Assembly: GCF_000022085.1 (NCBI RefSeq)
Contig: NC_011894.1
Location: 7,177,001 to 7,241,000 of the forward strand
Length of the DNA: 64,000 nt
Direction: 5' to 3'
DNA from: Methylobacterium nodulans ORS 2060
GTDB taxonomy: Bacteria > Pseudomonadota > Alphaproteobacteria > Rhizobiales > Beijerinckiaceae
The first letter of the stretch is position 1. Each line of letters begins with the position of its first letter. Of the stretch, positions 14,464 through 63,913 are shown in pieces. A program made the translations under genes and the position numbers. The notes beneath the pieces are model-generated. The model searched no databases. It saw nothing but the letters and a program-made list of their open reading frames with translations, and had not been told where the DNA came from.

Positions 14464-14539
<76 letters not shown>

Positions 14540-14636: not shown

Positions 14637-14712
<76 letters not shown>

Positions 14713-34285: not shown

Positions 34286-34376
34286 AGTGCGGGATCGCGA
34301 TGGCGTCGCGGTCCCGCTGCCCTCCTTGGGCGTTTCCTCCCTAGACTTGGGCCGCACCGCGTGTGCGGCCTTTTTT
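34286..34376 (+). ncRNA. Trans-acting small RNA, probable MmgR/suhB (alpha-r8) family
   Basis: A transcript of about 91 bases is bounded by a promoter and a strong terminator. It folds as a 12-bp hairpin (34289-34300 with 34306-34317, GCGGGATCGCGA side), a single-stranded stretch containing TTTCCTCCCT (34333-34342), and a terminator stem GGCCGCAC/GTGCGGCC (34350-34370) followed by six T. A hairpin, an exposed anti-Shine-Dalgarno-like TTTCCTCCCT and CCTAGACTTGGGCC leading into the terminator are, as I recall, the hallmarks of the MmgR (Rfam suhB) family. MmgR controls polyhydroxybutyrate accumulation in Sinorhizobium through Hfq. The family call rests on memory of the conserved motif and needs a covariance-model search. 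Confidence 0.72.
34350..34376 (+). terminator. Terminator of the small RNA
   Basis: The 8-bp perfect stem GGCCGCAC/GTGCGGCC has a 5-base loop and is followed by TTTTTT. It ends the small RNA about 95 bases before the next coding start. Confidence 0.88.
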
Positions 34377-34471
34377 CTGCGCGCTGTCCGATCCGGCGGG
34401 CGACTGCCGCGTTTCCGCTCCGCCCTGGCCCGCCGCGTGCATTGGTGGGGCGGGACATGGACGGAGGCGAG

Positions 34472-47741: not shown

Positions 47742-48785
47742 ATGAGCATGATCGAGGCCTCGGACCGCCCCCCGTCTGATGCCCGGCCGGAGGTCGGCCC
47801 GGTGCTGATCACCGGCGCGAGCGGCTTTCTCGGCTCGGCGCTGGTCGACGTCTTCCGGGGCGCCGGCTTCCCGGTGCGCATCCTGGTGCGGGCGACGAGC
47901 CCGCGCACCAACCTGACCTGGCCCGACGTCGCCGTGGCGGAGGGCGACATGCGCGATCCCGCCGCGGTCGCCTCGGCCATGGCGGGCATGCGCTACCTCG
48001 TGCATGCCGCCGCCGATTACCGCCTCTGGGCGCCCGACCCGGAGGAGATCGTGCGCACCAACCGCGACGGCACCCGGGTGCTGATGCGCGCCGCCCTCGA
48101 TGCGGGCGTGGAGCGGATCGTCTACACGTCGAGCGTCGCGACGATCAAACCGCATGACGACGGCACGCCCGCCGACGAGACCCGTCCGCTCACCCCCGAG
48201 ACCGCGATCGGCGCCTACAAGCGCAGCAAGGTCGTGGCCGAGCGCGTGGTCGAGGAGATGGTGGCCCGCGACCGGCTGCCCGCTGTCATCGTCAACCCCT
48301 CGACGCCGATCGGCCCGCGCGACGTCAAGCCGACGCCCACCGGCCGCATCATCGTGGAGGCGGCGAACGGCAGGTTGCCGGCCTTCGTCGATACCGGCCT
48401 CAACCTCGCCCATGTGGACGATGTGGCGGCCGGCCACCTGCTGGCGTTGCGCCGCGGGCGCATCGGCGAGCGCTACATCCTGGGCGGCGAGAATGTGCTC
48501 CTGTCGCGGATGCTCGCGGACATCGCCGGGATCGTGGGGCGCAAAGCCCCGACCCTCCGCCTGCCCCGCGCGGCGGTCTATCCGGTCGCCTTCGTCTCCG
48601 AACTCGCCGCCCGCGTCACGGGCCGGGCGCCGCTGGCCACCCTCGACGGCATCCGGATGTCCCGCTACCGGATGTTCTTCTCCGACGCCAAGGCACGGGC
48701 CGAACTCGGCTACTCCGCGCGGCCCTATCGCCAGGGCCTCGAGGATGCCGTCGCATGGTTCCGTCAGGCAGGATACATCCGATGA
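47742..48785 (+). CDS. hpnA: Hopanoid-associated sugar epimerase HpnA
   Basis: This 347-residue extended short-chain dehydrogenase/reductase has the NAD-binding motif TGASGFLGSALVDVF near residues 27-41 and the catalytic pair in GAYKRSK. HpnA is a marker of hopanoid clusters and is annotated as a nucleoside-sugar epimerase; its exact reaction is not established. Its TGA overlaps the hpnC ATG (ATGA), so the two are translationally coupled. It lies 176 bases downstream of dxs. Confidence 0.9.
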   Translation: MSMIEASDRPPSDARPEVGPVLITGASGFLGSALVDVFRGAGFPVRILVRATSPRTNLTWPDVAVAEGDMRDPAAVASAMAGMRYLVHAAADYRLWAPDPEEIVRTNRDGTRVLMRAALDAGVERIVYTSSVATIKPHDDGTPADETRPLTPETAIGAYKRSKVVAERVVEEMVARDRLPAVIVNPSTPIGPRDVKPTPTGRIIVEAANGRLPAFVDTGLNLAHVDDVAAGHLLALRRGRIGERYILGGENVLLSRMLADIAGIVGRKAPTLRLPRAAVYPVAFVSELAARVTGRAPLATLDGIRMSRYRMFFSDAKARAELGYSARPYRQGLEDAVAWFRQAGYIR

Positions 48786-49666
48786 CCACCGCGACCGAGG
48801 CGCGCTCCGGCAAGTCGCATCGCGACGAGAACTTCCCGGTCGCGTCGCACCTGGTCCATCCGCGGCACCGGGGGCCGATCCTGGCCTTCTACAATTTCGT
48901 GCGCGCGGGGGACGATGTCGCCGACCATTCGGACTTAAGCCCCGAGCGCAAGATCGCGCTCCTCGACGGGCTCGCGGACGCGCTCACCGGCGCCGGTCCG
49001 GCCGATCCGGAGGCGGCCGCCCTGAAGGCGGCGCTGGCCGGGCGGGGCCTGCCCCCGTGCCACGCCCTCGAACTCCTCGACGCCTTCCGGATGGATGCGA
49101 GGAAGTCGCGCTACGCCACCTTCGACGAGCTGATGCACTATTGCCGCTACTCGGCGATGCCGGTCGGGCGCTTCGTCCTCGACGTGCACGGCGAGGATCC
49201 GGCCGCGACCTGGGCGGCCTCGGACGCGATCTGCGCGGCGCTCCAGATCATCAATCACCTGCAGGATTGCGGGAAGGATTTCCGCCAGCTCGACCGGGTC
49301 TACCTGCCGCAGGATCTCCTCGCCACGCACGGCGTCGATGTGGCCGCGCTCGGCGCCGAGCGCGCCTCGCCGGCCTTGCGCGCGGTGATCGGCACCCTCG
49401 CCCATCGCTGCCTCGACCTGCTGCACGAGGGAAGGGCGCTCCCCGACCTGATCGAGGACACGCGGCTCTCCCTGGAGATCGCGGCGATCCACCGTCTCGC
49501 GGTGGCGCTGGCCCGCGGGCTCACGGCGCGCGACCCGCTGAGCGAGCCCGTGCACCACGGCAAGGCCGCCTTCGCGCTCATCGCGCTCTCGGCCGCGGGC
49601 GCCTGCCTGGCGCGGCGGCCCTTCCGGCGGCGCCTGCTGCCCAATGTGCGGGGAGCCCGCCCGTGA
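48782..49666 (+). CDS. hpnC: Hydroxysqualene synthase HpnC
   Basis: HpnC converts presqualene diphosphate to hydroxysqualene in the three-step squalene route HpnD-HpnC-HpnE. The 294-residue protein is of the trans-isoprenyl diphosphate synthase fold with DDVADHSD as first aspartate-rich motif and IINHLQDCGKDF as second, where HpnD has the standard NILRDIDED. Start MTTATEARSGKSHRDENFPVAS; the ENFPVAS stretch is typical of HpnC. It overlaps both neighbours by 4 bases. Confidence 0.92.
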   Translation: MTTATEARSGKSHRDENFPVASHLVHPRHRGPILAFYNFVRAGDDVADHSDLSPERKIALLDGLADALTGAGPADPEAAALKAALAGRGLPPCHALELLDAFRMDARKSRYATFDELMHYCRYSAMPVGRFVLDVHGEDPAATWAASDAICAALQIINHLQDCGKDFRQLDRVYLPQDLLATHGVDVAALGAERASPALRAVIGTLAHRCLDLLHEGRALPDLIEDTRLSLEIAAIHRLAVALARGLTARDPLSEPVHHGKAAFALIALSAAGACLARRPFRRRLLPNVRGARP

Positions 49667-50514
49667 CCGCCCTCGCCTCGCCCGCCCCTTCCTCCGTCCC
49701 CGAATCCCCGGCCTTGCCGGCCGCGGGCTCGTCCTTCTACGCGGCGATGCGCCTGCTGCCGGCCGCGCAGCGCGACGCCATGTATGCGGTCTACGCCTTC
49801 TGCCGGGCGGTGGACGACGTCGCCGATGATGGCGGGGCGCGCGACCAGCGCGCCGCCGAGCTCGACCGCTGGCGGGCCGACATCGACGCCCTCTATGCCG
49901 GGCGCCCTGCGCCCCGCCTCGCCCCGCTCGCCGGTCCGGTCCGGGATTTCGGCCTGAAGCGCGAGGATTTTCTCGCGGTCATCGACGGCATGGCGATGGA
50001 TGCCGAGGCCGATATCGTGGCGCCCGACGCTGCCACCCTCGACCTCTACTGCGACCGGGTCGCGAGCGCGGTGGGGCGGCTCTCGGTGCGGATCTTCGGG
50101 CTCGCCGAGGAGCCGGGCCGCGCCCTCGCCCACCATCTCGGCCGGGCGCTGCAGCTCACCAACATCCTGCGCGACATCGACGAGGATGCCGAGCGCGGGC
50201 GCCTCTACCTGCCGCGCGAGCGCCTCGCGGCGATCGGCCTGTCGCACCCGACGCCCGAGGCGGCCTTGCGCCACCCGCGTCTCGCCGAGGTCTGCACGGC
50301 GCTCGCCGCCGAGGCCGAGGCGCATTACCAAGCTTCCTGGCGGATCATCGCCGCCGCGCCGCGGCGCGCCACCAAGGCGCCCCGGATCATGGCGGCGGCC
50401 TATCACCTGATCCTCGATGGGCTCCTCGCGCGCGGCTGGGCGGCGCCCCGCACCCGGGTGAAGCCCGGCAAGCTCGCGCTGATCGGCGTCCTCCTGCGGC
50501 ACGGGATCCTGTGA
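49663..50514 (+). CDS. hpnD: Presqualene diphosphate synthase HpnD
   Basis: HpnD joins two farnesyl diphosphates to presqualene diphosphate. With the GTG start overlapping the hpnC stop (GTGA) the protein is 283 residues. It has a short Pro/Ser/Ala-rich N-terminus, then SSFYAAMRLLPAAQRDAMYAVYAFCRAVDDVADD and LTNILRDIDEDAERGRLYLP, the two magnesium-binding motifs of squalene/phytoene synthases. The stop overlaps the hpnE start. Confidence 0.93.
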   Translation: MTALASPAPSSVPESPALPAAGSSFYAAMRLLPAAQRDAMYAVYAFCRAVDDVADDGGARDQRAAELDRWRADIDALYAGRPAPRLAPLAGPVRDFGLKREDFLAVIDGMAMDAEADIVAPDAATLDLYCDRVASAVGRLSVRIFGLAEEPGRALAHHLGRALQLTNILRDIDEDAERGRLYLPRERLAAIGLSHPTPEAALRHPRLAEVCTALAAEAEAHYQASWRIIAAAPRRATKAPRIMAAAYHLILDGLLARGWAAPRTRVKPGKLALIGVLLRHGIL

Positions 50515-51830
50515 TGGCGGGGACTATCCACGTTCTCGGCGCGGGGCTCGCGGGGCTCTCGGCGGCGGTGCAGCTGACGCGCGGCGGCCGGCGCGTCGTC
50601 GTGCACGAGGCCGCCAAGCAGGCGGGCGGTCGCTGCCGCTCCTATTTCGACCCGGCGCTTGGCCTCACCATCGACAACGGCAACCACCTGCTCCTGTCGG
50701 GCAACCGCGACGCCCTCGATTTCCTGAAGGCGGTCGGCGCGCCGGCCGATGCGCTCACCGGACCGGCCGAGGCCGCCTTCCCGTTCGCTGATCTGCGGAC
50801 GGGCGAGCGCTGGACCCTGCGCCCCAATGCCGGGCGCCTGCCCTGGTGGGTGCTCGACGCGAGCCGCCGGGTGCCTGGAAGCCGCGCCCGCGACTACCTC
50901 GCGCCGCTCGGCATCCTGCGGGCGACCGCCCGCCCCCCGGGCCGGAAGGCGGCCTCGGCCGCGACCATCGGCGAGAGCATGGCCTGCGAGGGGCTGCTCT
51001 GGGACCGGCTCTGGCGCCCGGTGCTGCTCGCCGCCCTCAACACCGAGCCGCGCGAGAGCGATGCGGGCCTCGCCGCCGCCATCCTGCGCGAGACGCTCGG
51101 TGCGGGCGGGCGGGCCTGCCGTCCGCTCGTGGCGGTGGCGGGCCTCTCCGCGGCCTTCGTGGAGCCGGCTCTCGCCTTCCTCGCGCGGGCCGGGGCGGAG
51201 ATCCGCTTCGGCCGGCGCCTGCGGGCGCTGAGCCTCGCTGGCGAGCGCGTCGCGGCCCTGGATTTCAGCGATGGGACCGAGGCGCTGGGGCCGGAGGATG
51301 CCGTCGTGATGGCGCTGCCCGCCTGGGTTGCCGCCGATCTGATCCCGGGGCTCGCGGCCCCGCAGGCGCACCGCTCGATCGTCAACGCGCATTTCGCGGT
51401 GCCGCCGCCGCCGGGCTCGCCCCTGCTGCTCGGCGTCGTCGGCGGCCTCACCGAGTGGCTGTTCTCCTATCCGGACCGGCTCTCGGTGACGATCAGCGGA
51501 GCCGACCGGCTGCTGGAGACGCCCCGAGAGGAACTCGCGGACCGAATCTGGGACGAGGTTGCGCGTCTCACCGGCCAGGCCGGAGCCCCGCTGCCCCGTT
51601 GGCAGATCGTCAAGGAGAAGCGCGCAACCTTCGCGGCGACGCCGCTGGAAGCGGCGCGGCGCCCAGGTGCGCGAACGCACCTCGCAAACTTGGCGCTTGC
51701 GGGAGATTGGACGGCGACGGGGTTGCCGGCGACCATCGAGGGCGCCATCCGGTCCGGCGCGGTGGCGGCGGCGCTCTTCACCCAGGCAAGAGAGACCCAG
51801 GCAAGAGAGGCGCAGCGCGGGGCCGCTTGA
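50514..51830 (+). CDS. hpnE: Squalene-forming flavoprotein HpnE
   Basis: HpnE reduces hydroxysqualene to squalene. The 438-residue product is a phytoene-desaturase-like amine oxidase with the FAD-binding motif IHVLGAGLAGLSAAVQLTRGG at the N-terminus, GGRCRSYFDPALGLTIDNGNHLLLSG, and the C-terminal NLALAGDWTATGLPATIEGAIRSG. ATG 50514 shares its A with the hpnD stop; the codon before it is GTG. A tandem TQARE repeat (residues about 424-433) ends the protein. Confidence 0.92.
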   Translation: MAGTIHVLGAGLAGLSAAVQLTRGGRRVVVHEAAKQAGGRCRSYFDPALGLTIDNGNHLLLSGNRDALDFLKAVGAPADALTGPAEAAFPFADLRTGERWTLRPNAGRLPWWVLDASRRVPGSRARDYLAPLGILRATARPPGRKAASAATIGESMACEGLLWDRLWRPVLLAALNTEPRESDAGLAAAILRETLGAGGRACRPLVAVAGLSAAFVEPALAFLARAGAEIRFGRRLRALSLAGERVAALDFSDGTEALGPEDAVVMALPAWVAADLIPGLAAPQAHRSIVNAHFAVPPPPGSPLLLGVVGGLTEWLFSYPDRLSVTISGADRLLETPREELADRIWDEVARLTGQAGAPLPRWQIVKEKRATFAATPLEAARRPGARTHLANLALAGDWTATGLPATIEGAIRSGAVAAALFTQARETQAREAQRGAA

Positions 51831-51947: not shown

Positions 51948-53939
51948 GTGGGAAAGGTCGAGACGCTGCACCGCATGAGCACGCAGGACATCACGCTGGA
52001 CGATGTCGAGCGGCGCGTGTCGCTCGCGTCCAAGGCTCTGATGCGGCTCGCCGGCCCCGACGGGCATTGGTGCTTCGAGCTGGAGGCCGACGCCACCATC
52101 CCGTCCGAGTACATTCTCTATCATCATTTCCGCGGCTCGATCCCCTCCGCGGAGCTCGAGGGCAAGATCGCCAATTACCTGCGCCGCACGCAGAGCGCGC
52201 AGCACGACGGCTGGTCCCTCGTCCATGACGGCCCGTTCGACATGAGCGCGACCGTCAAGGCGTATTTCGCCCTCAAGATGATCGGCGATTCGATCGAGGC
52301 GCCGCATATGCGCCGCGCCCGCGAGGCGATCCTGCGCCGGGGCGGCGCCGCGCACGCCAACGTCTTCACCCGGACCCTTCTGGCCCTCTACGGCGAGGTG
52401 CCGTGGAGCGCCGTGCCGGTAATGCCCGTCGAGGTGATGCTGCTGCCGCGGTGGTTCCCCTTCCACCTCGACAAGGTGTCCTACTGGGCCCGCACCGTGA
52501 TGGTGCCGCTCTTCGTGCTGCAGGCCAAGAAGCCGCGGGCCAGGAATCCGCGGGGCATCGGCATCCAGGAGCTGTTCGTCGAGCCGCCGGAGCGGGTGAA
52601 ACGCTGGCCGGCCGGCCCGCAGGAATCCTCGCCGTGGCGCCCGGTCTTCGCCGCCATCGACAAGGTGCTGCAGAAGGTCGAGGGCTCGTTCCCGGCGGGC
52701 TCCCGTGCCCGGGCGATCGACAAGGCGGTGGCCTTCGTCAGCGAGCGCCTGAACGGCGAGGACGGGCTCGGCGCGATCTTCCCCGCGATGGTCAACGCGG
52801 TGCTGATGTACGAGGCGCTCGGCTACCCCGAAGATCACCCCCTGGTCGCGACCGCCCGCTCCTCGGTGGAGAAGCTCGTCACCGTCAAGGAGCACGAGGC
52901 CTACGTGCAGCCCTGCCTGTCGCCGGTCTGGGACACGGCGCTCTCGGCCCATGCGCTCATGGAGGCGGGCGGCGTCGAGGCGGAGCGGCACGCCAAGCGC
53001 GCCCTCGACTGGCTCAAGCCCCTGCAGGTGCTCGACATCAAGGGCGACTGGGCCGCCTCCAAGCCGAATGTGCGGCCGGGCGGCTGGGCCTTCCAGTACG
53101 CCAACCCGCATTATCCGGACCTCGACGACACCGCCGTGGTGGTGATGGCGATGGACCGGGCGCAGGTGCGCCGCAGCCCCGGCCCGGACGCGGCCGATTA
53201 CGGTCAGTCGATCGCGCGGGCGCGCGAATGGGTCGAGGGCCTGCAGAGCCGCGACGGCGGCTGGGCGGCCTTCGACGCGGACAACACCTACCATTACCTC
53301 AACTACATCCCGTTCTCCGATCACGGGGCGCTGCTCGACCCGCCGACCGCCGACGTGACGGCGCGCTGCGTCTCGATGCTGGCGCAGCTCGGTGAGACGC
53401 GCGAGAGCTGCCCGCCCCTCGACCGGGGCGTCGCCTACCTGCTGGCCGACCAGGAGGCGGATGGCAGCTGGTATGGCCGCTGGGGCATGAACTACATCTA
53501 CGGCACCTGGTCGGTGCTCTGCGCGCTGAACGCCGCTGGGGTCGACCCGGCCTCGGAGCCGGTGCGGCGGGCGGTGAACTGGCTCACCACCATCCAGAAC
53601 CCGGATGGCGGCTGGGGCGAGGACGCGGCGAGCTACAAGCTCGAATATCGCGGCTACGAGCGGGCGCCGAGCACCGCCTCGCAGACCGCCTGGGCGCTCC
53701 TCGGGCTCATGGCCGCGGGCGAGGCGGACAGCCCGGCAGTGGCGCGAGGCATCAACTACCTGACCCGCAGCCAGGGGGCGGACGGGCTCTGGACCGAGGA
53801 CCGCTATACGGCGACCGGGTTCCCGCGCGTCTTCTACCTGCGCTATCACGGCTACGCGAAGTTCTTCCCGCTCTGGGCGCTTGCCCGCTACCGCAACCTC
53901 CAGCAGAGCAACAGCCGTCGGGTCGCCGTCGGGATGTGA
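51948..53939 (+). CDS. shc: Squalene-hopene cyclase
   Basis: Shc cyclises squalene to hopene and hopanol in the inner membrane. The 663-residue protein has the catalytic DLDDTA with Asp391, Asp393 and Asp394, and several QW repeats (for example QSRDGGWAAFDADN and QNPDGGWGED). The membrane-inserting segment lies around LPRWFPFHLDKVSYWARTVMVPLFVLQAKKP. The start is GTG 51948; ATG 51975 (MSTQDITLDD) is a reasonable alternative. It is 117 bases after hpnE and ends in a large palindrome. Confidence 0.95.
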   Translation: MGKVETLHRMSTQDITLDDVERRVSLASKALMRLAGPDGHWCFELEADATIPSEYILYHHFRGSIPSAELEGKIANYLRRTQSAQHDGWSLVHDGPFDMSATVKAYFALKMIGDSIEAPHMRRAREAILRRGGAAHANVFTRTLLALYGEVPWSAVPVMPVEVMLLPRWFPFHLDKVSYWARTVMVPLFVLQAKKPRARNPRGIGIQELFVEPPERVKRWPAGPQESSPWRPVFAAIDKVLQKVEGSFPAGSRARAIDKAVAFVSERLNGEDGLGAIFPAMVNAVLMYEALGYPEDHPLVATARSSVEKLVTVKEHEAYVQPCLSPVWDTALSAHALMEAGGVEAERHAKRALDWLKPLQVLDIKGDWAASKPNVRPGGWAFQYANPHYPDLDDTAVVVMAMDRAQVRRSPGPDAADYGQSIARAREWVEGLQSRDGGWAAFDADNTYHYLNYIPFSDHGALLDPPTADVTARCVSMLAQLGETRESCPPLDRGVAYLLADQEADGSWYGRWGMNYIYGTWSVLCALNAAGVDPASEPVRRAVNWLTTIQNPDGGWGEDAASYKLEYRGYERAPSTASQTAWALLGLMAAGEADSPAVARGINYLTRSQGADGLWTEDRYTATGFPRVFYLRYHGYAKFFPLWALARYRNLQQSNSRRVAVGM

Positions 53940-53969: not shown

Positions 53970-54042
53970 GAGACGGACATCCTGACGCAGGCAGGTCCGG
54001 CCGGCCTTGTGCATTGGGAGGATGCCGGCGCGGGAGTCCTCG

Positions 54043-55074
54043 ATGACGCTCTACAGCTATCACGCCTCGCACGAGCAGGTCGCCCCGCGCGACCTCATCG
54101 GCCTCGTGCAGCGGGCCGAGCAGGCGGGCTTCGACGCGGCCTTCTCCTCCGACCATCTCCAGCCCTGGTCGCCTGCGCAGGGGCAGTCCGGCTTCGCCTG
54201 GGCCTGGCTCGGTGCGGCGCTGCAGGCGACGCAGCGCCTGACCTTCGGGGTGATCACGGTGCCGGGCGGCTGGCGCTACCACCCGGCGGTGCTGGCCCAG
54301 GCGGTGGCGACGCTCGGCCAGATGTATCCGGGCCGCCTGCCCTGGGTCGCGCTCGGCAGCGGGCAGGCCCTGAACGAATCCGTCACCGGCGCGCCCTGGC
54401 CCGACCGGGCCGAGCGCAATGCCCGCCTGCGCGAGGGCGCCGAGATCATGCGGGCTCTGCTCGCCGGCGAGACCGTGACGCATCGCGGCCGCGTCTCGGC
54501 GCTCGACGCGAAGATCTGGTCGCGCCCCGAGACGCCGACCCGCCTCGTCGGCGCCGCAACCACCCAGGAGACCGCCGCCTGGCTCGGCACCTGGGCGGAC
54601 GGGCTCCTGACCGTGGGCTGCCGGCCGGACGCGCTCGCGCGCATCGTCGATGCCTTCCGGGAGAATGGCGGCGCCGACAAGCCGATCTTTCTCAAGCTCG
54701 ACCTCAGCTTCGCCCGCGACCCGGCCGAGGCGCTGCACCAGGCGCATGCGGCGTGGCGCTTCAACCAGCTCGGCAGCCCGGTCGCCTGGGAGCTGCGCAG
54801 CCCCGCGGAATTCGATGCCGCCGCCCGCTTCGTGCGGCCCGAGGACATGCACGCACAGGTTCTCGTCTCGTCGGACCTCGCGGCCATCACCGACCGCATC
54901 GCGGCCTGCGCGGGCTTGGGCTTCGACAGCATCGACCTGCATCAGGTCGGCGGAAGCCAAGCCGCCTTCATCGAGGTCTTCGGCGAGCGGGTGCTGCCGG
55001 CCCTGCGCGCGCGCAGGGCCCCAGCGGCGGATTTCGATCCGATGGCGATGATGCCGACGGCACGGGGGGCCTAG
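54043..55074 (+). CDS. LLM-class flavin-dependent oxidoreductase (TIGR03885-like)
   Basis: This 343-residue protein of the luciferase-like monooxygenase superfamily starts MTLYSYHASHEQVAPRDLIGLVQRAEQAGFDAAFSSDHLQPWSP. YHASHEQ and SSDH are typical of the TIGR03885 group, described as probable non-F420 flavinoid oxidoreductases. Members often look like F420-dependent glucose-6-phosphate dehydrogenase but occur in organisms that lack F420. Its substrate is unknown. It follows shc by 103 bases, inside the hopanoid region, but I see no proof of a hopanoid role. ATG 54043 has GGGAG about 6 bases upstream. Confidence 0.82.
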   Translation: MTLYSYHASHEQVAPRDLIGLVQRAEQAGFDAAFSSDHLQPWSPAQGQSGFAWAWLGAALQATQRLTFGVITVPGGWRYHPAVLAQAVATLGQMYPGRLPWVALGSGQALNESVTGAPWPDRAERNARLREGAEIMRALLAGETVTHRGRVSALDAKIWSRPETPTRLVGAATTQETAAWLGTWADGLLTVGCRPDALARIVDAFRENGGADKPIFLKLDLSFARDPAEALHQAHAAWRFNQLGSPVAWELRSPAEFDAAARFVRPEDMHAQVLVSSDLAAITDRIAACAGLGFDSIDLHQVGGSQAAFIEVFGERVLPALRARRAPAADFDPMAMMPTARGA

Positions 55075-55403: not shown

Positions 55404-56294
55404 ATGCGGAAGCTGCTCAAGGCTGTCGTGAAGGCACGGGCCGTCCGTTTCGGTGCCGTAGCGACCCTCATGGTCTCGGCGGCAGGCTGCGGCACGCCGT
55501 TGCTGACCGAGGCAGGCCTCATCTCCCGGTACGATCGCCTGGCGCCGACCGAGGCGACCGCCACGAAGGCTCGGCTCTTCGTCGACAAGGCGGCCCTGGC
55601 GGGCATGCGGACGGTGCGCATCATCCCGACCTCCTTCCCGGAGGCGGTGTCGGGATCCGCCCTCACCCCGCGCGAGCGGCGGCTGATCGCCAACGCGGCT
55701 GACCGCGCCCTCTGCTACGAATTGTCCCTGCGCTACGACGTGGTCTCGTCCGGCAAGGCCGACCTGACAGTCCGCTCGGCCATCACGCATGTCGGCCTGA
55801 CCGACGTGCCGGCTGCAGGCGCCACGATCGGCGCCTCCGCAGCCATCACGATCGCTGCCCAGGTGGGAGCCGGCTTCGCCGAAACCATCGGCAGGATCCC
55901 GGTCCCGCGCGTGCCGATCGGGCTCGGGGACCTGACCGTCGAGGCCGAGGCCGTCGATGCCCGCCGCCAGCAGCGGGCCGCCATGATCTGGGCCGGCGCC
56001 GCCAATTCCTTCACCAACCCGGCCCGCTTCTCCGCCGGCAGCGACGCCTACGACCTCGCCGGCGATTTCGGCCAGGATTTCGGCTATCTCCTCGCGACCG
56101 GCGAGGACCCCCTCCAGGCGGGACCCACCATTCCGACCTACGACCGGATCCGCGTCACCATGCTGGGCGAGGCCCCGCTCGATCCCGACTGCCAGGTGTT
56201 CGGCCGTGCCCCCGGCGTCGACGGCATCATCGGCGACGTCATCGGCCTGCCGCCGGACTGGACCGACAAGGGACCGCTCGACGCGCAGCGCTGA
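55404..56294 (+). CDS. DUF3313-like lipoprotein
   Basis: This 296-residue protein has a long basic N-terminus, a hydrophobic stretch and a lipobox-like VSAAGCGTP with Cys29. The mature part (LISRYDRLAP, then TVRIIPTSFPE, RERRLIANAADRALCYELSLRYDVV, TVRSAITHVG) matches the DUF3313 pattern of outer-membrane-linked lipoproteins of unknown function. It lies within the hopanoid region on the plus strand, but hopanoid involvement is only positional. A giant palindrome follows it. Confidence 0.65.
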   Translation: MRKLLKAVVKARAVRFGAVATLMVSAAGCGTPLLTEAGLISRYDRLAPTEATATKARLFVDKAALAGMRTVRIIPTSFPEAVSGSALTPRERRLIANAADRALCYELSLRYDVVSSGKADLTVRSAITHVGLTDVPAAGATIGASAAITIAAQVGAGFAETIGRIPVPRVPIGLGDLTVEAEAVDARRQQRAAMIWAGAANSFTNPARFSAGSDAYDLAGDFGQDFGYLLATGEDPLQAGPTIPTYDRIRVTMLGEAPLDPDCQVFGRAPGVDGIIGDVIGLPPDWTDKGPLDAQR

Positions 56295-56820: not shown

Positions 56821-58008
56821 TCAGAAGTAGGACTTCAGCGTCCCGCGCCGGCGCACGTCGAGCGTGGCGCAGTGGAAGGAGCCGCCGAACGGACCATAGG
56901 ACAGGAAGGGGGCCGGGATCGGATCGAAGTCCCAGTCCTTCAGCGCCTTGATCAGGGTGGGCTGGCTCGCGTCGACCACCACCTTCTTCTCGTCGAGCAT
57001 CAGCACGTTGATCGAGGTCCAGGGCGAGCACATGGAGATCTTGCTCATGAAGCCCTCGACGGGGTCGGGGCGCGGGGCGATCAGCACGTCCCACTTCTTG
57101 AGGATCGGGGGCAGGCGCTCGACGTCGATGTAGTCGGGGTTGACCAGCACCTTGCCGGGCGCGAGCGGCATGAACGACGAGTCGATGTGCATCGGCTGCG
57201 GGCAGCGGCTCTCGATCTCGTGGATGCGGAAGCCCGGGCCGAGGTGACGGCGCAGCCACTCGATGCCCATCAGGTTGGTGACATTGGAGCGGGTGACGAA
57301 GATATCGCGGCCGCAGCGCACGAAATCGGCCGCGTCGAAGACCGGCTCGAACTCGTTGACCGTGTAGCGCATCGGCTCGCCGGCCTTCAGGTTCGGCACC
57401 CGGTAGTCGTAGTTGTAGAGGTCGTCGGTGAGCTGGGGCCGCGGGGCCGAGGTCCAGCGGGCGCCGGCCCGGAAATACTCCTTGAACAGCGACCGATAGG
57501 CATCGCCCTCGAAGTAGCGCGAGCGCCAGCACATCGGCGATTCGATGATCTCGTCGCCGATGACGAGGTAGGGGTCGCGCGGGCAGGCGACGCAGAAGCC
57601 CCGGGAGGACCAGCGCGGCGCCTTGTACTTCTTCGAGAAGTCGACCGCGTCGGGCCGGCGCACCGTGACGCCCTCGCCCGCCAGGATGGCGATGAAGTTG
57701 TCGAGCTCGGCCTGGGCGAGCTTCTTCATGAACTTCGGGTACTTCCAGCCCGACGCGAAGCGGTAGAAGGGCTGGGCGGCACGCGGCAGGTTGAAGATCA
57801 CCGTCAGGTGGTGGGTCGGGATGGTCGCGCCCTCAAGGCTGCCGACGATCACCTCCTCGAGGGGATCCCACTCGTTCCAGGCCATCACCGGAGAATGGGG
57901 AGAGACGGCCCGGTTCGGGGCCGACGCGGCGTTGAATGCGAGCAGGTCCTGGCTGGCGGCCTCGTCGAGCACGTCGTGCCCCGTATCGATGGTCGTCTCC
58001 CGGTCCAT
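56821..58008 (-). CDS. Glycine/inosamine-type amidinotransferase
   Basis: This 395-residue enzyme is of the family of arginine:glycine and arginine:inosamine amidinotransferases, which move an amidino group from arginine to an amine to make a guanidino compound. The active cysteine is Cys380 in GGSFHCATLDVRRRG, with His274 in PMHIDSSF and Asp228 in FDAADFVRCGRDIF, close to the spacing in vertebrate GATM. NVLMLDEKKVVVDA and NVTNLMGIEWLRRHLGP also match. ATG 58008 is preceded by GGGGAG. It is divergent from hpnL within the hopanoid region. Methylobacterium is reported to make a guanidine-substituted hopanoid cyclitol ether, so that head group is the suggested substrate. Glycine or another amine remains possible. 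Confidence 0.88.
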   Translation of the reverse strand: MDRETTIDTGHDVLDEAASQDLLAFNAASAPNRAVSPHSPVMAWNEWDPLEEVIVGSLEGATIPTHHLTVIFNLPRAAQPFYRFASGWKYPKFMKKLAQAELDNFIAILAGEGVTVRRPDAVDFSKKYKAPRWSSRGFCVACPRDPYLVIGDEIIESPMCWRSRYFEGDAYRSLFKEYFRAGARWTSAPRPQLTDDLYNYDYRVPNLKAGEPMRYTVNEFEPVFDAADFVRCGRDIFVTRSNVTNLMGIEWLRRHLGPGFRIHEIESRCPQPMHIDSSFMPLAPGKVLVNPDYIDVERLPPILKKWDVLIAPRPDPVEGFMSKISMCSPWTSINVLMLDEKKVVVDASQPTLIKALKDWDFDPIPAPFLSYGPFGGSFHCATLDVRRRGTLKSYF

Positions 58009-58311
58009 AGCCTGTGTGTCTCCCCTTTGGCCGTTGCAAATCGGCCTCATCCGGGGCGCATCCGCATCGGGGCGGTTTCGACGCCCGGACCGGAAAAAGC
58101 GCCCAGCGCCAAACACTTGCGAGGGCTTCCGAAGAATCGGGTCGAGATGACCGCAATTCCGGTTTGCCCGGCAGTGTGTCCGGGCGGTGATAGACAAGGC
58201 GTGGTGAAGCTGCAACGTCGCGGGCGGCACGCTGATGTTTTGCGCCGCACCCGTTGCACGAATGGCGCGCATTCCGGGGCCGAAGGCGGCCGCGGCAACA
58301 GAAAGAGGACC
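58009..58311. promoter_or_regulatory. Divergent promoter region, amidinotransferase/hpnL
   Basis: The 303 bases separate two divergent starts and should hold promoters for both the amidinotransferase and hpnLMIJK. I see no terminator and no certain promoter boxes. The shared region would allow joint control of the two transcripts. Confidence 0.45.
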
Positions 58312-59397
58312 ATGAAGCGTCTCACCACCCTGGCCCTGGCGGCAGGCCTGTGCACCGCGATCGGCCTGTTCGTTTCCTCCGGGCCCGAGGCCGTGATGGA
58401 GGCGGCCTGGGCTGCGGGCTGGGGCGCTGCGCTCGTGGTGCTCGCCCGCGTGATCGCGGTGGCCTGGGCGGGCCTCGCCTGGTGGGTGGTCTTCCCCGCC
58501 GAAGGGCGGCCGCCCCTGCGGGCCTGCGTGTCGATCCGCTTCGTGCGCGAGGGCATCAACACGCTGCTGCCCGTGGCGCAGGTGGGCGGCGACCTGATCG
58601 GCGCGCGTCTCCTGACGCTGCAGAAGGTGGCGGGCGGGCTTGCGGGCGCGAGCATGTTCGTCGACCTGATGCTCCAGGCGCTGACCCAGTTCCTGTTCAC
58701 GGTGATCGGGCTCGGCATCCTGGTCGCGCTCGGGGGCGACGGGCCGATCGTGCGCTACGTGGCGGTCGGCCTCGCGGTCGCGGCGCCGGCGCTCGGCGCC
58801 TTCTACCTCGTGCAGCGGCGCTCCGGGCACCGACTCCTCCAGGCCGCCATGCGGCGCTTCGCCAGCGGGCGCGAGTGGCGGGCGCTCGGCGCCGTCGACG
58901 TGCTCTACGCCCATCTGCGCGGGCTCTACGGGGCGCCCCGCCGCGTCGCCTCGGCCGTCGGGCTGCACCTCGTCGGCTGGGTGATCGGTGCCCTCGAAGT
59001 GTGGGTGGCCTTACGCTTCATGGGATACGGGACGGCTTTCCTGGAGGCCCTGGTCATCGAGAGCCTCGCGCAGGCCGTGCGCGGCGCGGCCTTCGCGGTG
59101 CCGGGCGCCCTCGGCGCCCAGGAGGGCGGGCTGATCGCGCTGTGCGCCGTCTTCGGCATCCCGGCGGAGGCGGCGCTCGCGCTCTCGCTCGTCAAGCGGG
59201 TGGCCGATCTGCTGGTCGGGGTGCCGAGCCTCGGCCTCTGGCACGCTCTGGAGAATCGCGCGCGCGGAGAGGCGACCGGAATCCGCTCGTCTCTGCGCAG
59301 CGTGTTCGGGGCGGCGCCGATGCCGGCGCCCCTCGATCCGGCCTACGGCTATGCGGCGTCCGTCGCGGCGGCTGCCGACGCGAAAAGGGGGGAGTGA
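58312..59397 (+). CDS. hpnL: Hopanoid-associated membrane protein HpnL
   Basis: This 361-residue inner-membrane protein has about seven to eight hydrophobic segments and is related to the flippase-like domain of lysylphosphatidylglycerol synthases. HpnL is found with hopanoid genes; its exact job is not settled. RFVREGINTLLPVAQVGGDLIGARLL and IESLAQAVRGAAFAVPGALGAQEGGLIALC are typical. ATG 58312 has AGAGGA upstream. It starts hpnLMIJK and overlaps or closely precedes hpnM. Confidence 0.88.
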   Translation: MKRLTTLALAAGLCTAIGLFVSSGPEAVMEAAWAAGWGAALVVLARVIAVAWAGLAWWVVFPAEGRPPLRACVSIRFVREGINTLLPVAQVGGDLIGARLLTLQKVAGGLAGASMFVDLMLQALTQFLFTVIGLGILVALGGDGPIVRYVAVGLAVAAPALGAFYLVQRRSGHRLLQAAMRRFASGREWRALGAVDVLYAHLRGLYGAPRRVASAVGLHLVGWVIGALEVWVALRFMGYGTAFLEALVIESLAQAVRGAAFAVPGALGAQEGGLIALCAVFGIPAEAALALSLVKRVADLLVGVPSLGLWHALENRARGEATGIRSSLRSVFGAAPMPAPLDPAYGYAASVAAAADAKRGE

Positions 59398-59402
59398 CGC
59401 AC

Positions 59403-60092
59403 GTGCGGAATCGACGCGAGATCCTGCGCGCCGGCCTCGTCACGGCCGGCCTGGCGGCCGTCGGCTTCGGACTCCAGCCGGCCCGGGCCGCCGACGACCC
59501 GGCGGTCGCGACCGTGCGGCGGATGACCGAGGCGTTCCAGGAGGCCCTCAAGAGCCCGGACGTGCGCGGCCGCGTGGCCGTGCTCACGGCCCCCATGGCC
59601 GAGTCCTTCGACCTGCCCGCCATGCTCCGCCTGGCGATCGGCTCGCGCTGGAAGAACATTCCGGCCGACAAGCAGGCCGCCCTGATCGAGGCCTTCGGTC
59701 CCTATCTCACCGCCACCTACGCGACCCGCCTCTCCGCGGCGGCGGGCGGACGCTTCCGCGTGCCGCCGAAGAGCGAGCCGCGCGGCAGCGGCCGCATCGT
59801 GCGCAGCACCGCCATCGACGCGAGCGGGGACGAATCGCCCGTCGACTACATCACCAACGCCGAGGGCAAGATCACCGACGTCTATCTGCAGGGCACGATC
59901 AGCGAGGCCGGCACCCTGCGGACCAACTTCAGCGATCCGCTCAAGAGCGGCGGGGCCGACGCGCTCCTCGAATACATGCGCAAGACCACCGCCACGATGC
60001 TGGCGGCGCCCTCCCCGGCGCCGAATCCGGGTTCGGCGCCGAACGCCGCGGTCGGCGGCGCCTCGGACCAGCCCGGCGCCGCGAAGCCCTGA
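59403..60092 (+). CDS. hpnM: Periplasmic hopanoid-associated protein HpnM (Ttg2D/MlaC-like)
   Basis: This 229-residue protein has a twin-arginine-like N-terminus (RNRREILRAGLVTAGLAAVG, cleavage after RAA) and the toluene-tolerance Ttg2D/MlaC domain (PMAESFDLPAMLRLAIGSRWKNIPADKQAALIEAFGPYLTATYATRL). Such proteins carry lipids across the periplasm. HpnM is the hopanoid-cluster version and probably works with HpnN, which is not in the window. The start is GTG 59403 with GGAG 8 bases upstream; GTG 59394 overlapping the hpnL stop is the alternative. A Pro/Ala tail ends the protein. Confidence 0.87.
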   Translation: MRNRREILRAGLVTAGLAAVGFGLQPARAADDPAVATVRRMTEAFQEALKSPDVRGRVAVLTAPMAESFDLPAMLRLAIGSRWKNIPADKQAALIEAFGPYLTATYATRLSAAAGGRFRVPPKSEPRGSGRIVRSTAIDASGDESPVDYITNAEGKITDVYLQGTISEAGTLRTNFSDPLKSGGADALLEYMRKTTATMLAAPSPAPNPGSAPNAAVGGASDQPGAAKP

Positions 60093-60157: not shown

Positions 60158-61345
60158 ATGGACTCCACCTGGATCTCGACCCTGTTCCTCAGCCTCGCGG
60201 TGGCCGGCTGCGTCTATGCCCTCGTGGCGGCGTGGCTCGCGGGCCGCGCGGCGCGCAGGCGCGCGCCGGCGCTGGCGGCGAATGCGCCGCGTCCTTCCGT
60301 GACGCTGATGAAGCCGCTCTGCGGGGCGGAGCCGAACCTCTACGAGAACCTGACGACCTTCTGCCGCCAGGATTACGCAGGCGCGATCCAGCTGATCTTC
60401 GGTGTCCAGACCGCCGCCGATCCGGCCATCGCGGTGGTGAACCGCCTGCGGGCGGAGCACCCGGCCCTGCGCATCGATCTCGTGATCGATCCCCGCCAGC
60501 ACGGCTCGAACCGCAAGGTCTCGAACCTCATCAACATGGCGGGGCTGATCGCCCACGAGATCGTGGTGCTGGCCGACAGCGACATGGTGGTGGCGCCCGA
60601 TTACCTGGAGCGGATCGTCGCGGAGCTGGTGCAGCCCGGCGTGGCCGGCGTGACCTGCCTCTATCACGGGGTGCCGGCCTACCGGACGGTCTGGGCGCAG
60701 CTCTCGACGCTGGCCATCGACACGCAATTCCTGCCGAACGTGCTGGTCGGCACCGGATTTCGCCTTGCCGAGCCCTGTTTCGGCTCGACCATCGCGTTCC
60801 GGGCCGAGGCGCTCGCGGCGATCGGCGGGTTCGAGCGCGTGAAGGACGACCTCGCGGACGATTATGCGCTCGGCGCGGCGCTGCGCGGCGCCGGCGGCGG
60901 AATCATCGCCATCCCGAACTTCACGATCGGCCATACCTGCGTCGACACCTCGCTCTCCGACCTGTGGCGGCACGAGACGCGCTGGAACCGCACCATCCGC
61001 AACGTCGATCCGGCGGGCTATGCGGGCAGCCTCGTCACGCATGCCTTCCCGCTCGCCCTCATCGGCGCCCTGATGCCGGACACGAGCCCGCAGGGGCTGG
61101 CGATCGCCGCGCTCGCCCTCACCTGCCGCATCGTCCTGTGCCTGTGCGTGGAGCGCGCCTTCGGCCTCGCGCCCCATCCCTATTGGCTGCTGCCGATTCG
61201 CGACTTGGTCTCCTTTGCCGGCTTCGCGTGGTGCTTCGTCTCCGGCGCGGTGACTTGGAAAGGTCACGATTATCGCGTTGTGGCTGACGGCACGCTCATC
61301 CCCGAGCCGGGCCTCGCGCAGGAATCCGGCGCCCGCTCGACCTGA
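60158..61345 (+). CDS. hpnI: Hopanoid glycosyltransferase HpnI
   Basis: HpnI attaches an N-acetylglucosamine unit to bacteriohopanetetrol, the first head-group step of the cyclitol ether route. The 395-residue protein is a ceramide-glucosyltransferase-like GT2 enzyme with an N-terminal anchor helix, metal-binding VVLADSDMVVAPDY, DDLADDYALG, the RHETRWNRTIR motif (QxxRW type, here HETRW) and C-terminal hydrophobic segments. ATG 60158 starts MDSTWISTLF. It lies between hpnM and hpnJ, spacings 65 and 47 bases. Confidence 0.92.
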   Translation: MDSTWISTLFLSLAVAGCVYALVAAWLAGRAARRRAPALAANAPRPSVTLMKPLCGAEPNLYENLTTFCRQDYAGAIQLIFGVQTAADPAIAVVNRLRAEHPALRIDLVIDPRQHGSNRKVSNLINMAGLIAHEIVVLADSDMVVAPDYLERIVAELVQPGVAGVTCLYHGVPAYRTVWAQLSTLAIDTQFLPNVLVGTGFRLAEPCFGSTIAFRAEALAAIGGFERVKDDLADDYALGAALRGAGGGIIAIPNFTIGHTCVDTSLSDLWRHETRWNRTIRNVDPAGYAGSLVTHAFPLALIGALMPDTSPQGLAIAALALTCRIVLCLCVERAFGLAPHPYWLLPIRDLVSFAGFAWCFVSGAVTWKGHDYRVVADGTLIPEPGLAQESGARST

Positions 61346-61392: not shown

Positions 61393-62832
61393 ATGCGCAC
61401 CCTCTTCCTTCAGGCCCCCACCTTCGACGGTTTCGACGGCGGCGCCGGCTCCCGCTATCAGGCCAAGCGCGAGATCAAGTCGTTCTGGTACCCGACCTGG
61501 CTCGCCCAGCCGGCGGCCCTCGTCGAGAACTCCAAGCTCATCGACGCGCCGCCGCACAACCTCAAGCTCGCGGACGTGACGGCGCAGGCCAAGGACTTCG
61601 ACCTCGTCGTCCTCCACACCTCGGTGCCGTCCTTCAAGCAGGACGTCGCCACCGTCGCGGCACTGAAGGCGGCCAATCCCAACCTCAAGGCCGGCCTCAT
61701 CGGCGCCAAGGTGGCGGTGGATGCGCAGGGGTCGCTCGAGAAGGCGCCGGTCATCGACTTCGTGGCCCGCAACGAGTTCGACTTCACCTGCAAGGAGGTC
61801 GCCGAGGGCCGCGACCTGTCGCAGATCAAGGGCCTGTCCTACCGCAACGCTTCCGGCGTCATCGTGCACAACGAGGACCGGCCGGTGATGATGGACATGG
61901 ACCAGCTGCCCTTCGTCACCAGCGTCTACAAGCGCGATCTGGTGATGGAGAACTACTTCATCGGCTACCTCAAGCACCCCTACATCTCGTTCTATTCGGG
62001 CCGGGGCTGCAAGTCGCGCTGCACCTTCTGCCTCTGGCCGCAGACGGTCGGCGGCCACACCTACCGGACGCGGTCGGTCGGGCACGTGATCGAGGAGATC
62101 AAGTACTGCCTGAAGGCGTTCCCGCAGACGAAGGAATTCTTCTTCGACGACGACACCTTCACGGACAACCTGCCCCGCGCGGAAGAAATCGCCCGCGAGC
62201 TCGGCAAGCTCGGCGTGACCTGGTCGTGCAACGCCAAGGCGAATGTGCCGCGCGAGACCCTGAAGGTGCTGCGCGACAACGGCCTGCGGCTGCTCCTGGT
62301 CGGCTACGAATCCGGCAACCAGCAGATTCTGCACAACATCAAGAAGGGCATGCGGGTCGAGGTGGCCGAGCGCTTCACCAAGGATTGCCACGATCTCGGC
62401 ATCGCCATCCACGGCACCTTCATCCTCGGCCTGCCGGGCGAGACCAAGGAGACGATCCAGGAGACGATCAAGTTCGCCACCCGGATCAACCCGCACACCA
62501 TCCAGGTCTCGCTCGCCGCGCCCTATCCGGGCACCTTCCTGTACAAGCAGGCGGTGGAGAACGGCTGGCTCGACGAGGCGAATGCCGAGCTCGTGGACGA
62601 GAACGGTGTGCAGATCGCGCCGCTGCACTATCCGCACCTGTCCCACACCGAGATCTTCAACTCGGTCGAGGATTTCTACCGGAAGTTCTACTTCCGCGCT
62701 CCGAAGATCGCCTCGATCGTCGGCGAGATGGTGCGCTCGCCCGAGATGATGAAGCGCCGTCTGCGCGAGGGCGTCGAGTTCTACCGCTTCCTCAAGGAGC
62801 GGCAGGCGGGCGGCACCGCCAAGGCCGCGTAA
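61393..62832 (+). CDS. hpnJ: Hopanoid radical-SAM protein HpnJ
   Basis: HpnJ is proposed to contract the glucosamine ring to the cyclitol ether of bacteriohopanetetrol. The 479-residue protein has an N-terminal B12-binding-like domain (to about 170) and a radical-SAM domain with the cluster motif CKSRCTFC (C-x3-C-x2-C) in YSGRGCKSRCTFCLWPQT, plus FFFDDDTFTDN. It is highly conserved in hopanoid producers with cyclitol ethers. A 14-base-arm hairpin and a mosaic repeat follow before hpnK. Confidence 0.93.
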   Translation: MRTLFLQAPTFDGFDGGAGSRYQAKREIKSFWYPTWLAQPAALVENSKLIDAPPHNLKLADVTAQAKDFDLVVLHTSVPSFKQDVATVAALKAANPNLKAGLIGAKVAVDAQGSLEKAPVIDFVARNEFDFTCKEVAEGRDLSQIKGLSYRNASGVIVHNEDRPVMMDMDQLPFVTSVYKRDLVMENYFIGYLKHPYISFYSGRGCKSRCTFCLWPQTVGGHTYRTRSVGHVIEEIKYCLKAFPQTKEFFFDDDTFTDNLPRAEEIARELGKLGVTWSCNAKANVPRETLKVLRDNGLRLLLVGYESGNQQILHNIKKGMRVEVAERFTKDCHDLGIAIHGTFILGLPGETKETIQETIKFATRINPHTIQVSLAAPYPGTFLYKQAVENGWLDEANAELVDENGVQIAPLHYPHLSHTEIFNSVEDFYRKFYFRAPKIASIVGEMVRSPEMMKRRLREGVEFYRFLKERQAGGTAKAA

Positions 62833-63058: not shown

Positions 63059-63913
63059 ATGACCGCATCCCCCAAGCGCCTCGTCGTCACCTCGGACGAT
63101 TTCGGCCTGTCGCCGCAGGTGAACGAGGCCGTCGAGGCGGCGCACCGGACCGGGATCCTCTCGGCCGCGAGCCTGATGGTGGCCGCCCCCGCCGCGTCCG
63201 ACGCGGTGGCGCGGGCGAAGCGGATGCCGTCGCTGCGCACCGGGCTGCATCTCGTCATGGTGGAGGCATGGCCGCTGCGGCCGGCCTCGGAGCTGCCCGA
63301 CCTCGTGGATGCCGACGGTCTCCTGCGCCGCGACATGGGGCGGCTCGGCCTCGACCTCGCCGTGAAGCCCCGCGCCCGCCGCCAGCTCGCGGCGGAGATC
63401 CGGGCCCAGTTCGAGGCCTATCGGGCCACCGGGCTCCCCCTCGACCACGTCAACGCGCACAAGCACTTCCATGTGCATCCGGTGATCGCGGGCCTCGTTC
63501 TGGCGATCGGCCGGGATTACGGCATGCGGGCCCTGCGCGTGCCGCGCGAGGACCGGGCGGTGCTGCGCCGGGCGGAGCCCGCTGTCTCGCCGGGACTCGC
63601 CCTCGATACGGCGCCCTGGGCCGCATGGCTCGGGCACCGCGCGCGACGCGCCGGGCTCCTCGTGCCGGACGGCGTCCTCGGCCTCGCCTGGTCCGGCCGG
63701 ATGACGCCGGCCCGGGTTGCCGGCCTGTTGCGGCACCTGCCGGATGGCTTGACCGAGCTCTATGCGCATCCGGCGACGGCGGGCGGGTTCCCGGGCGAGG
63801 CGCCGGGCTACGCCTATGCGGAGGAGCTGGCAGCGCTCACGGCGCCGGAGAGCCGGGCCGCCTTCGCCGCCTCGGGCGCGGTGCTCGGCGGCTTCTCGGA
63901 CTTCCTCATATAG
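63059..63913 (+). CDS. hpnK: Hopanoid deacetylase HpnK (YdjC/ChbG-like)
   Basis: HpnK removes the acetyl group from the N-acetylglucosaminyl hopanoid, giving glucosaminyl bacteriohopanetetrol for HpnJ. The 284-residue protein has the YdjC/ChbG fold motifs: VVTSDDFGLSPQVNEAV (metal-binding Asp), TGLHLVM, and LDHVNAHKHFHVHP with metal-ligand histidines. ATG 63059 starts MTASPKRL; the frame is open back through the repeat to 62906. The sequence after its stop (63914-64000) has no complete gene; an ATG at 63997 may begin the next one. Confidence 0.92.
   Translation: MTASPKRLVVTSDDFGLSPQVNEAVEAAHRTGILSAASLMVAAPAASDAVARAKRMPSLRTGLHLVMVEAWPLRPASELPDLVDADGLLRRDMGRLGLDLAVKPRARRQLAAEIRAQFEAYRATGLPLDHVNAHKHFHVHPVIAGLVLAIGRDYGMRALRVPREDRAVLRRAEPAVSPGLALDTAPWAAWLGHRARRAGLLVPDGVLGLAWSGRMTPARVAGLLRHLPDGLTELYAHPATAGGFPGEAPGYAYAEELAALTAPESRAAFAASGAVLGGFSDFLI

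Follow-up and report, generated by a model that had tools for sequence, protein, structure and literature searches.

Amidinotransferases of the family considered here use a common chemistry, in which arginine forms an amidino-cysteine and the group then passes to an amine. L-arginine:glycine amidinotransferase (AGAT) acts on soluble glycine. Inosamine-phosphate amidinotransferase, an enzyme of streptomycin synthesis, uses an aminocyclitol in the form of a soluble phosphate ester and offers the closest chemical parallel to the present case. To our knowledge, the known pathway of a further member, SxtG, includes no hopanoid genes.

In hopanoid synthesis, bacteriohopanetetrol (BHT) N-acetylglucosamine, BHT glucosamine and BHT cyclitol ether are made in turn by HpnI, HpnK and HpnJ; this branch is published without an amidinotransferase, and neither "amidin" nor "guanid" occurs in the main text of the article (PMC12583986). 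Guanidine-substituted cyclitol-ether hopanoids were reported in 1985 from Methylobacterium organophilum (Renoux and Rohmer, 1985, as cited in PMC5642901), a report on which the initial annotation of the present locus drew. Methylobacterium extorquens AM1 converts adenosylhopane to the BHT cyclitol ether and its guanidine-substituted form, and the structure list for strain DM4 contains the latter (PMC5358736). PMC5642901 attributes the guanidine-substituted cyclitol ether to methylotrophs, Zymomonas mobilis, Geobacter sulfurreducens, a Gloeocapsa enrichment, Dolichospermum and Aphanizomenon, and BHT glucosamine in guanidine-substituted form to Dolichospermum BIR53 and a cultured Nostoc. A search mostly confined to sources other than subscription journals and preprints returned no paper joining "hopanoid" with "amidinotransferase", and among the matches listed no enzyme was named for the guanidine step, in agreement with the annotation, whose author knew of none assigned to it.

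The window analyzed here, 64,000 nucleotides of Methylobacterium nodulans ORS 2060 (contig NC_011894.1, positions 7,177,001 to 7,241,000), contains a gene, core in Methylobacterium, that from its sequence and surroundings looks like a candidate for the missing enzyme that puts guanidine on the hopanoid head group. The relevant features of the window are the following.

47742..48785, plus strand: HpnA, over the NCBIfam cut-off; same cluster
48755..49666, plus strand: HpnC, over the NCBIfam cut-off; same cluster
49663..50514, plus strand: HpnD, 346 bits vs 278.6 (NCBIfam); same cluster
50511..51830, plus strand: HpnE, over the NCBIfam cut-off; same cluster
51948..53939, plus strand: squalene-hopene cyclase (Shc), 742 bits vs 431.1
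54007-55074: LLM oxidoreductase
56821..58008, minus strand: candidate hopanoid guanidinyl (amidino) transferase, 395 aa; catalytic Asp225/His274/Cys380
58009..58311, no strand: gap of 303 bp between the divergent starts of the amidinotransferase and hpnL
58312..59397, plus strand: HpnL, TIGR03476, 331 bits vs cut-off 195.65
59394..60092, plus strand: HpnM-like, TIGR03481, 93.5 bits, below the cut-off of 160.1
60158..61345, plus strand: HpnI, bacteriohopanetetrol glucosamine biosynthesis glycosyltransferase, 433 bits vs 310
61393..62832, plus strand: HpnJ, radical SAM enzyme of the cyclitol-ether step, 813.5 bits vs 577.6
63059..63913, plus strand: HpnK, deacetylase exposing the head-group amine, 348 bits vs 232.6

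Elsewhere in the window lie two ordinary tRNA genes with equal scores (14464-14536 and 14637-14709, plus strand) and an equally ordinary suhB/mmgR small RNA (34312-34385, plus strand). Between the LLM oxidoreductase and the amidinotransferase, a 296-aa protein without an NCBIfam match is encoded at 55404-56294 (plus strand); it is conserved near the amidinotransferase in some Methylobacterium (L002, L003, L008, L009, L127, L130, L132).

The amidinotransferase frame (58008..56821, minus strand) translates into 395 amino acids without internal stops, and one match to the protein was found in the whole genome (8,839,022 bases in 8 contigs). A search against PDB sequences shows similarity over the full length to seven distinct amidinotransferases of the AGAT/StrB type (E 8e-132 to 4e-73), so that the description of the gene as a complete arginine-type amidinotransferase stands. 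The top solved relative is SxtG (6u1r, 443 bits), which aligns over residues 39-395 with conservation of the catalytic residues, followed by AGAT (1jdw/1jdx, 359 bits; residues 25-394 aligned to 1jdw, with the same Asp, His and Cys) and HsvA (5wpi, 319 bits). The streptomycin enzyme, to which the family comparison had initially been drawn, is related along residues 41-394 but is the lowest-scoring of the solved relatives listed (1bwd, 250 bits), and the comparison is better made with SxtG and AGAT. From both of these the window gene nevertheless differs in context: unlike SxtG, it is tied to hpn genes, and this genomic link predicts a lipid-bound amine as the acceptor, unlike that of AGAT. In the 1jdw chain, the counterparts of Asp225, His274 and Cys380 are positions 254, 303 and 407, which we take to be the AGAT catalytic residues; the three residues of the window protein are invariant in an alignment of 30 chosen relatives. 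The initial assignment of His274 and Cys380 thus holds, whereas the catalytic Asp is, by the 1jdw alignment, Asp225 and not Asp228, the second Asp of the shared FDAAD motif, which is likewise invariant in the 30 sequences. No Pfam family matches the protein at 1e-3 and the sole NCBIfam match, to dimethylargininase, reaches 24.7 bits against a cut-off of 340; this absence of a curated match may say more about the libraries than about the protein. The predicted structure is of moderate confidence (mean pLDDT 71.7). Relatives are labelled "glycine amidinotransferase" in JGI, where the label is a name only.

The gene is linked in the window to hpnI, hpnJ and hpnK, each above its NCBIfam cut-off. 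Its annotated position beside an hpnL-hpnM-hpnI-hpnJ-hpnK array is accordingly correct for HpnL, HpnI, HpnJ and HpnK, with HpnM falling below its cut-off (93.5 vs 160.1 bits). As for the divergent promoter region that the gene was said to share with hpnL, the two starts do diverge, 303 bp apart if HpnL starts at 58312, but a scan restricted to sigma-70-like promoters detected no such site in 57950-58450. Intact catalytic residues, the genomic link to hpn genes and the product class known from Methylobacterium together argue that the acceptor is very probably a hopanoid head group of the HpnI/HpnK/HpnJ branch, a judgment that embraces both possible orders of the steps. The amidino group of L-arginine, the presumed donor, would pass to the active-site Cys380 with release of ornithine, and then to the amine placed on BHT by HpnI and HpnK, the predicted acceptor. 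The molecule modified could be either glucosaminyl-BHT, before the action of HpnJ, or the finished cyclitol ether, after it, the latter being the likelier acceptor in Methylobacterium. The product would be the guanidine-substituted BHT cyclitol ether, with a head group that would keep its positive charge at physiological pH. HpnL, a possible flippase and, in the non-cyanobacterial loci examined, the hpn gene that most often immediately adjoins the amidinotransferase, may carry this product across the membrane.

A match to the amidinotransferase is present in all 111 Methylobacterium genomes examined, a few of the matches being fragmented, and in 33 of the 199 genomes of a family-level sample: 10 Methylobacterium, 7 from two other genera at 75-78% identity, 14 at 58-63%, one at 41%, and one fragment. 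HpnJ is over the cut-off in 43 of the 199, comprising all 17 genomes with a close homologue and 26 of the 182 others (Fisher 2.5e-13; 7/7 vs 26/182 with the genus left out, 2.8e-6; common descent is ignored in both values). The co-occurrence with hpnI, hpnJ and hpnK that the initial annotation had proposed to look for is thus found in every close-homologue genome as far as HpnJ is concerned, and the 26 genomes with hpnJ and no close copy are expected if the plain cyclitol ether is the default product. Among the 14 genomes at 58-63% identity none has HpnJ over the cut-off, and no hpn genes occur in the flanks of the 12 loci examined from them; one of these genomes, G209, contains a broken-up HpnJ match (540 bits) with sub-threshold fragments.

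The physical linkage follows the same pattern. In 16 Methylobacterium loci besides that of the window, each about 4 kb long, hpnL adjoins the amidinotransferase; hpnL is present in all seven loci from the sister genera, along with hpnI, hpnJ and hpnK in five, the other two loci ending at contig ends. The distance to hpnL is 3.7 kb in L014, and in L018 the gene abuts hpnK, not hpnL. The scan of named genomes used the best 80 of 485 relatives, 42 of which are Methylobacteriaceae; HpnL, HpnI and HpnJ were detected in 41 of 41 of these loci and HpnK in 40 of 41, and the forty-second, that of Enterovirga aerilata (L115), contains all four. In a search of plasmids, the only record above 80% identity came from Methylobacterium bullatum, where the gene and hpnJ are 3.4 kb apart. 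A phylum-level sample yielded 18 of 398 genomes with any match, the members of the window's group among them being six Methylobacterium only, the window's own genome included; no additional gene contexts came from this sample.

These data also bear on the order of the steps. Amidination of glucosaminyl-BHT, the product of HpnK, followed by contraction of the guanidinylated sugar by HpnJ, would assign the enzyme the same role and is a possibility of some weight, though the less favored of the two orders, its share being counted within the hopanoid reading and not beside it. It is suggested by the guanidine-substituted BHT glucosamine reported from Dolichospermum BIR53 and a Nostoc culture (PMC5642901), by the gene orders in M. 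oxalidis (L087) and G013 (L177), where hpnK lies downstream of the amidinotransferase on the same strand, and in G183, where the two genes abut, and by four genomes of the window's group (G704, G705, G710, G773) with HpnK over the cut-off and no whole HpnJ. The presence in Methylobacterium of both the plain and the guanidine-substituted cyclitol ether (PMC5358736), on the other hand, fits amidination of a pool of cyclitol ether already completed, and amidination of the cyclitol ether is the order that we consider likelier for this genus.

The linkage to hpn genes extends beyond the genus, though not to every locus. The gene caller missed some genes in GC-rich loci (e.g., the amidinotransferase copy of L063 and HpnL of L071), and for this reason the contexts described here rest mainly on tblastn and family searches. 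In cyanobacteria, the gene calls at a Scytonema locus (L053) give the order squalene-synthase-like gene, HpnJ, HpnK, a 291-aa protein, HpnK on the opposite strand, an HpnI-like gene and two amidinotransferases; HpnJ and both HpnK are over the cut-off, as is a second HpnI 7 kb farther on, and the HpnI-like gene, 2 bp upstream of the amidinotransferase, scores 296 bits against a cut-off of 310. Two Rhizonema loci (L054, L055) resemble that of Scytonema, L055 with a single amidinotransferase, and Iningainema (L056) retains HpnK and HpnI. The amidinotransferases form tandem pairs in Scytonema (L053:9977-12271) and Rhizonema (L054:7224-9493); the two members of a pair perhaps divide the glucosamine and cyclitol acceptors between them. 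The 291-aa protein, which has no Pfam match, lies beside hpnK in Scytonema (L053:6737-7612, plus strand) and immediately follows the amidinotransferase in a Gloeocapsa metagenome-assembled genome (MAG; L059:2055-2876, plus strand) and another cyanobacterium (L161:7539-8324, plus strand). In a Cyanobacteriales sample, 5 of 195 genomes contain a close copy (at least 72% identity to P0161) and 24 have HpnJ over the cut-off; HpnJ is present in three of the five, with 21 HpnJ genomes lacking the gene (Fisher 0.014). A sixth genome, G748, holds a 66% fragment with three stops.

Outside cyanobacteria, a desulfuromonad locus (L066) repeats the Methylobacterium layout, with the gene followed by hpnL, hpnK, hpnJ and hpnI in a different internal order; HpnI, HpnK and HpnL are over their cut-offs, as is HpnJ on the same contig. 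In an order-level sample around desulfuromonad G697, a close homologue was detected in one of 136 genomes, G697 itself. A planctomycete locus (L068) has, on one strand, hpnI, hpnJ, a radical SAM gene, hpnK, an hpnL-like gene and the amidinotransferase, with only HpnJ over the cut-off. HpnL over the cut-off lies immediately upstream on the same strand in Burkholderia sp. H160, Paramagnetospirillum and two Acetobacteraceae (L063, L071, L072, L073). Homologous radical SAM proteins are encoded near the amidinotransferase in a cyanobacterium (L056:12262-13389, minus strand), the Burkholderia (L063:7487-8740, plus strand) and the planctomycete (L068:6731-8056, plus strand); they match no NCBIfam model over its cut-off and possibly catalyze a further step of head-group tailoring. 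None of hpnI, hpnJ, hpnK and hpnL was detected in the examined flanks of 12 loci, namely L057 (Calothrix), L058 (Acaryochloridaceae), L059, L060, L061, L064, L067, L069, L081, L160, L161 and L162; in the Gloeocapsa MAG of L059, HpnJ and HpnK were not found in 1.8 Mb.

A quick tree of 95 selected sequences, built by maximum likelihood, places the window gene in a group of 48 together with cyanobacterial and other sequences. The node that unites the group is weak (support 21), its cyanobacterial and alpha/beta-proteobacterial parts being better supported (96 and 94, respectively). A sister clade of 25 sequences (support 99) consists of Streptomyces, the Beijerinckiaceae at 58-63% identity and a Methylothermaceae MAG, with 56-65% identity by tblastn; L116 falls outside both. 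For the whole-genome comparison, 28 genomes of the window's group were counted, taken either through loci among the best 80 of 485 relatives or from the cyanobacterial sample; L115 belongs to one of them, G716, in which the HpnJ coordinates equal those of G185 of the family sample. HpnJ or HpnK is over the cut-off in 25 of the 28 and in none of the 25 sister-clade genomes, the three exceptions (G691, G698, G708) all being MAGs; neither protein is over the cut-off in G717, a MAG branching outside both groups. Among the 39 carrier genomes drawn from the best 80 of 485 relatives, with L063 left out, HpnJ is present in 19, i.e., 19 of the 27 non-Streptomyces genomes vs 0 of the 12 Streptomyces.

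The surroundings of the gene in the sister clade are of a different kind. All 13 of the 13 non-Streptomyces loci (12/12 Beijerinckiaceae, L020-L031, and Methylothermaceae L070) contain, at 8-113 bp from the amidinotransferase, a gene for a small multidrug-resistance protein resembling SugE, tail to tail in 11; the protein of L030 scores 98 bits against the SugE cut-off of 126 and is therefore SugE-like and not a curated SugE. SugE-type proteins are guanidinium exporters. With this query no match was obtained at E 1e-5 in the loci examined from Streptomyces and from the window's group. No Rfam family, including a guanidine riboswitch, was found at the gathering threshold near the sister-clade genes in any of the seven loci searched out of the 12 from Beijerinckiaceae. 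The Streptomyces carriers (L078, L096, L097, L101, L107, L111, L117, L118, L121, L122, L126, L131), with HpnJ or HpnK over the cut-off in 0 of 12, have no neighbor gene family common to more than four of the 12 loci. On the simplest reading, these observations suggest that the sister clade makes a soluble guanidino product with its own exporter, in which case the hopanoid link is a property of the window's group and not of the family. From the comparison of sequences and gene contexts, this link is clade-specific; the proposition that the whole family is one hopanoid enzyme was not adopted as the main interpretation, given the sister clade without HpnJ or HpnK over the cut-off and its SugE-like neighbor outside Streptomyces. 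Could the enzyme of the window's group act instead on glycine, lysine or an unknown metabolite, all soluble amines, and owe its position near hpn genes to history? The presence of AGAT, which uses glycine, among the nearest solved relatives and the soluble product suggested for the sister clade lend this some plausibility, but it is very unlikely in view of the linkage to hpnI, hpnJ, hpnK and hpnL in varied gene orders across several phyla, the division of HpnJ/HpnK between the two groups, and the lack of a SugE-like match in the examined loci of the window's group. An incidental location of the gene was rejected, as several phyla show the linkage, each time in another gene arrangement, and as it sets the group apart from the sister clade.

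The entry enzyme to extended hopanoids, HpnH, is distributed differently. Its gene was found in 48 of the 54 carriers tested from both groups, including 24 of 25 in the sister clade (12/12 Streptomyces and 11/12 other Beijerinckiaceae), and hence does not distinguish the window's group from the sister clade. The initial annotation would have counted many carriers without hopanoid genes against a hopanoid role, and such carriers were not observed in number: the sister clade lacks hpnJ and hpnK over the cut-off, but 24 of its 25 genomes contain hpnH. This distribution, in genomes that have neither HpnJ nor HpnK over the cut-off, might fit an acceptor other than the cyclitol ether, such as a different glucosaminyl lipid or 35-aminobacteriohopanetriol. 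The product known from Methylobacterium, however, is the guanidine-substituted cyclitol ether (PMC5358736), and the linkage to hpnI, hpnJ and hpnK points to that branch, so that such an acceptor appears highly improbable for the window gene. A broader scenario, to which we give a low but appreciable probability, is that of a widely transferred guanidinium-hopanoid branch, present in at least six phyla, with the amidinotransferase as its dedicated signature gene and, except in cyanobacteria, HpnL as the flippase. In this scenario the sister clade would guanidinylate another amino-hopanoid, e.g., 35-aminobacteriohopanetriol, and the small exporter would serve as the flippase.

The interpretation of the window gene as a hopanoid-head-group amidinotransferase, proposed in the initial annotation, thus gains support from genomic co-occurrence and from recurrence in other phyla. 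The gene is found in Methylobacterium genomes and in the Gloeocapsa MAG, which belong to groups reported with guanidine hopanoids. Counting against the hopanoid reading are the members of the window's group, and G717, without HpnJ or HpnK over the cut-off, the incomplete overlap with HpnJ in Cyanobacteriales, the weak support for the window's group as one branch and the 12 loci with no hpnI, hpnJ, hpnK or hpnL in the examined flanks. So does a 2025 UHPLC-HRMS survey in which Methylobacterium soli, M. oxalidis, M. aquaticum and Methylorubrum rhodesianum were cultivated and whose main text does not contain "guanid" (PMC12583986); the amidinotransferase is present in the genomes of M. oxalidis (L087), M. 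rhodesianum (L106) and M. soli (L114).

If the hopanoid reading is correct, the enzyme would be, as far as we know, the first of this amidinotransferase family to act on a membrane lipid. With a signature gene, geochemists could predict which organisms produce a biomarker whose sources are at present assigned case by case to methylotrophs, Geobacter and cyanobacteria, and the gene would give access to the effect on the membrane of a hopanoid head group whose positive charge is permanent. Should the broader scenario prove true as well, one protein family would be the mark of a whole class of sterol-like lipids with a permanent charge.
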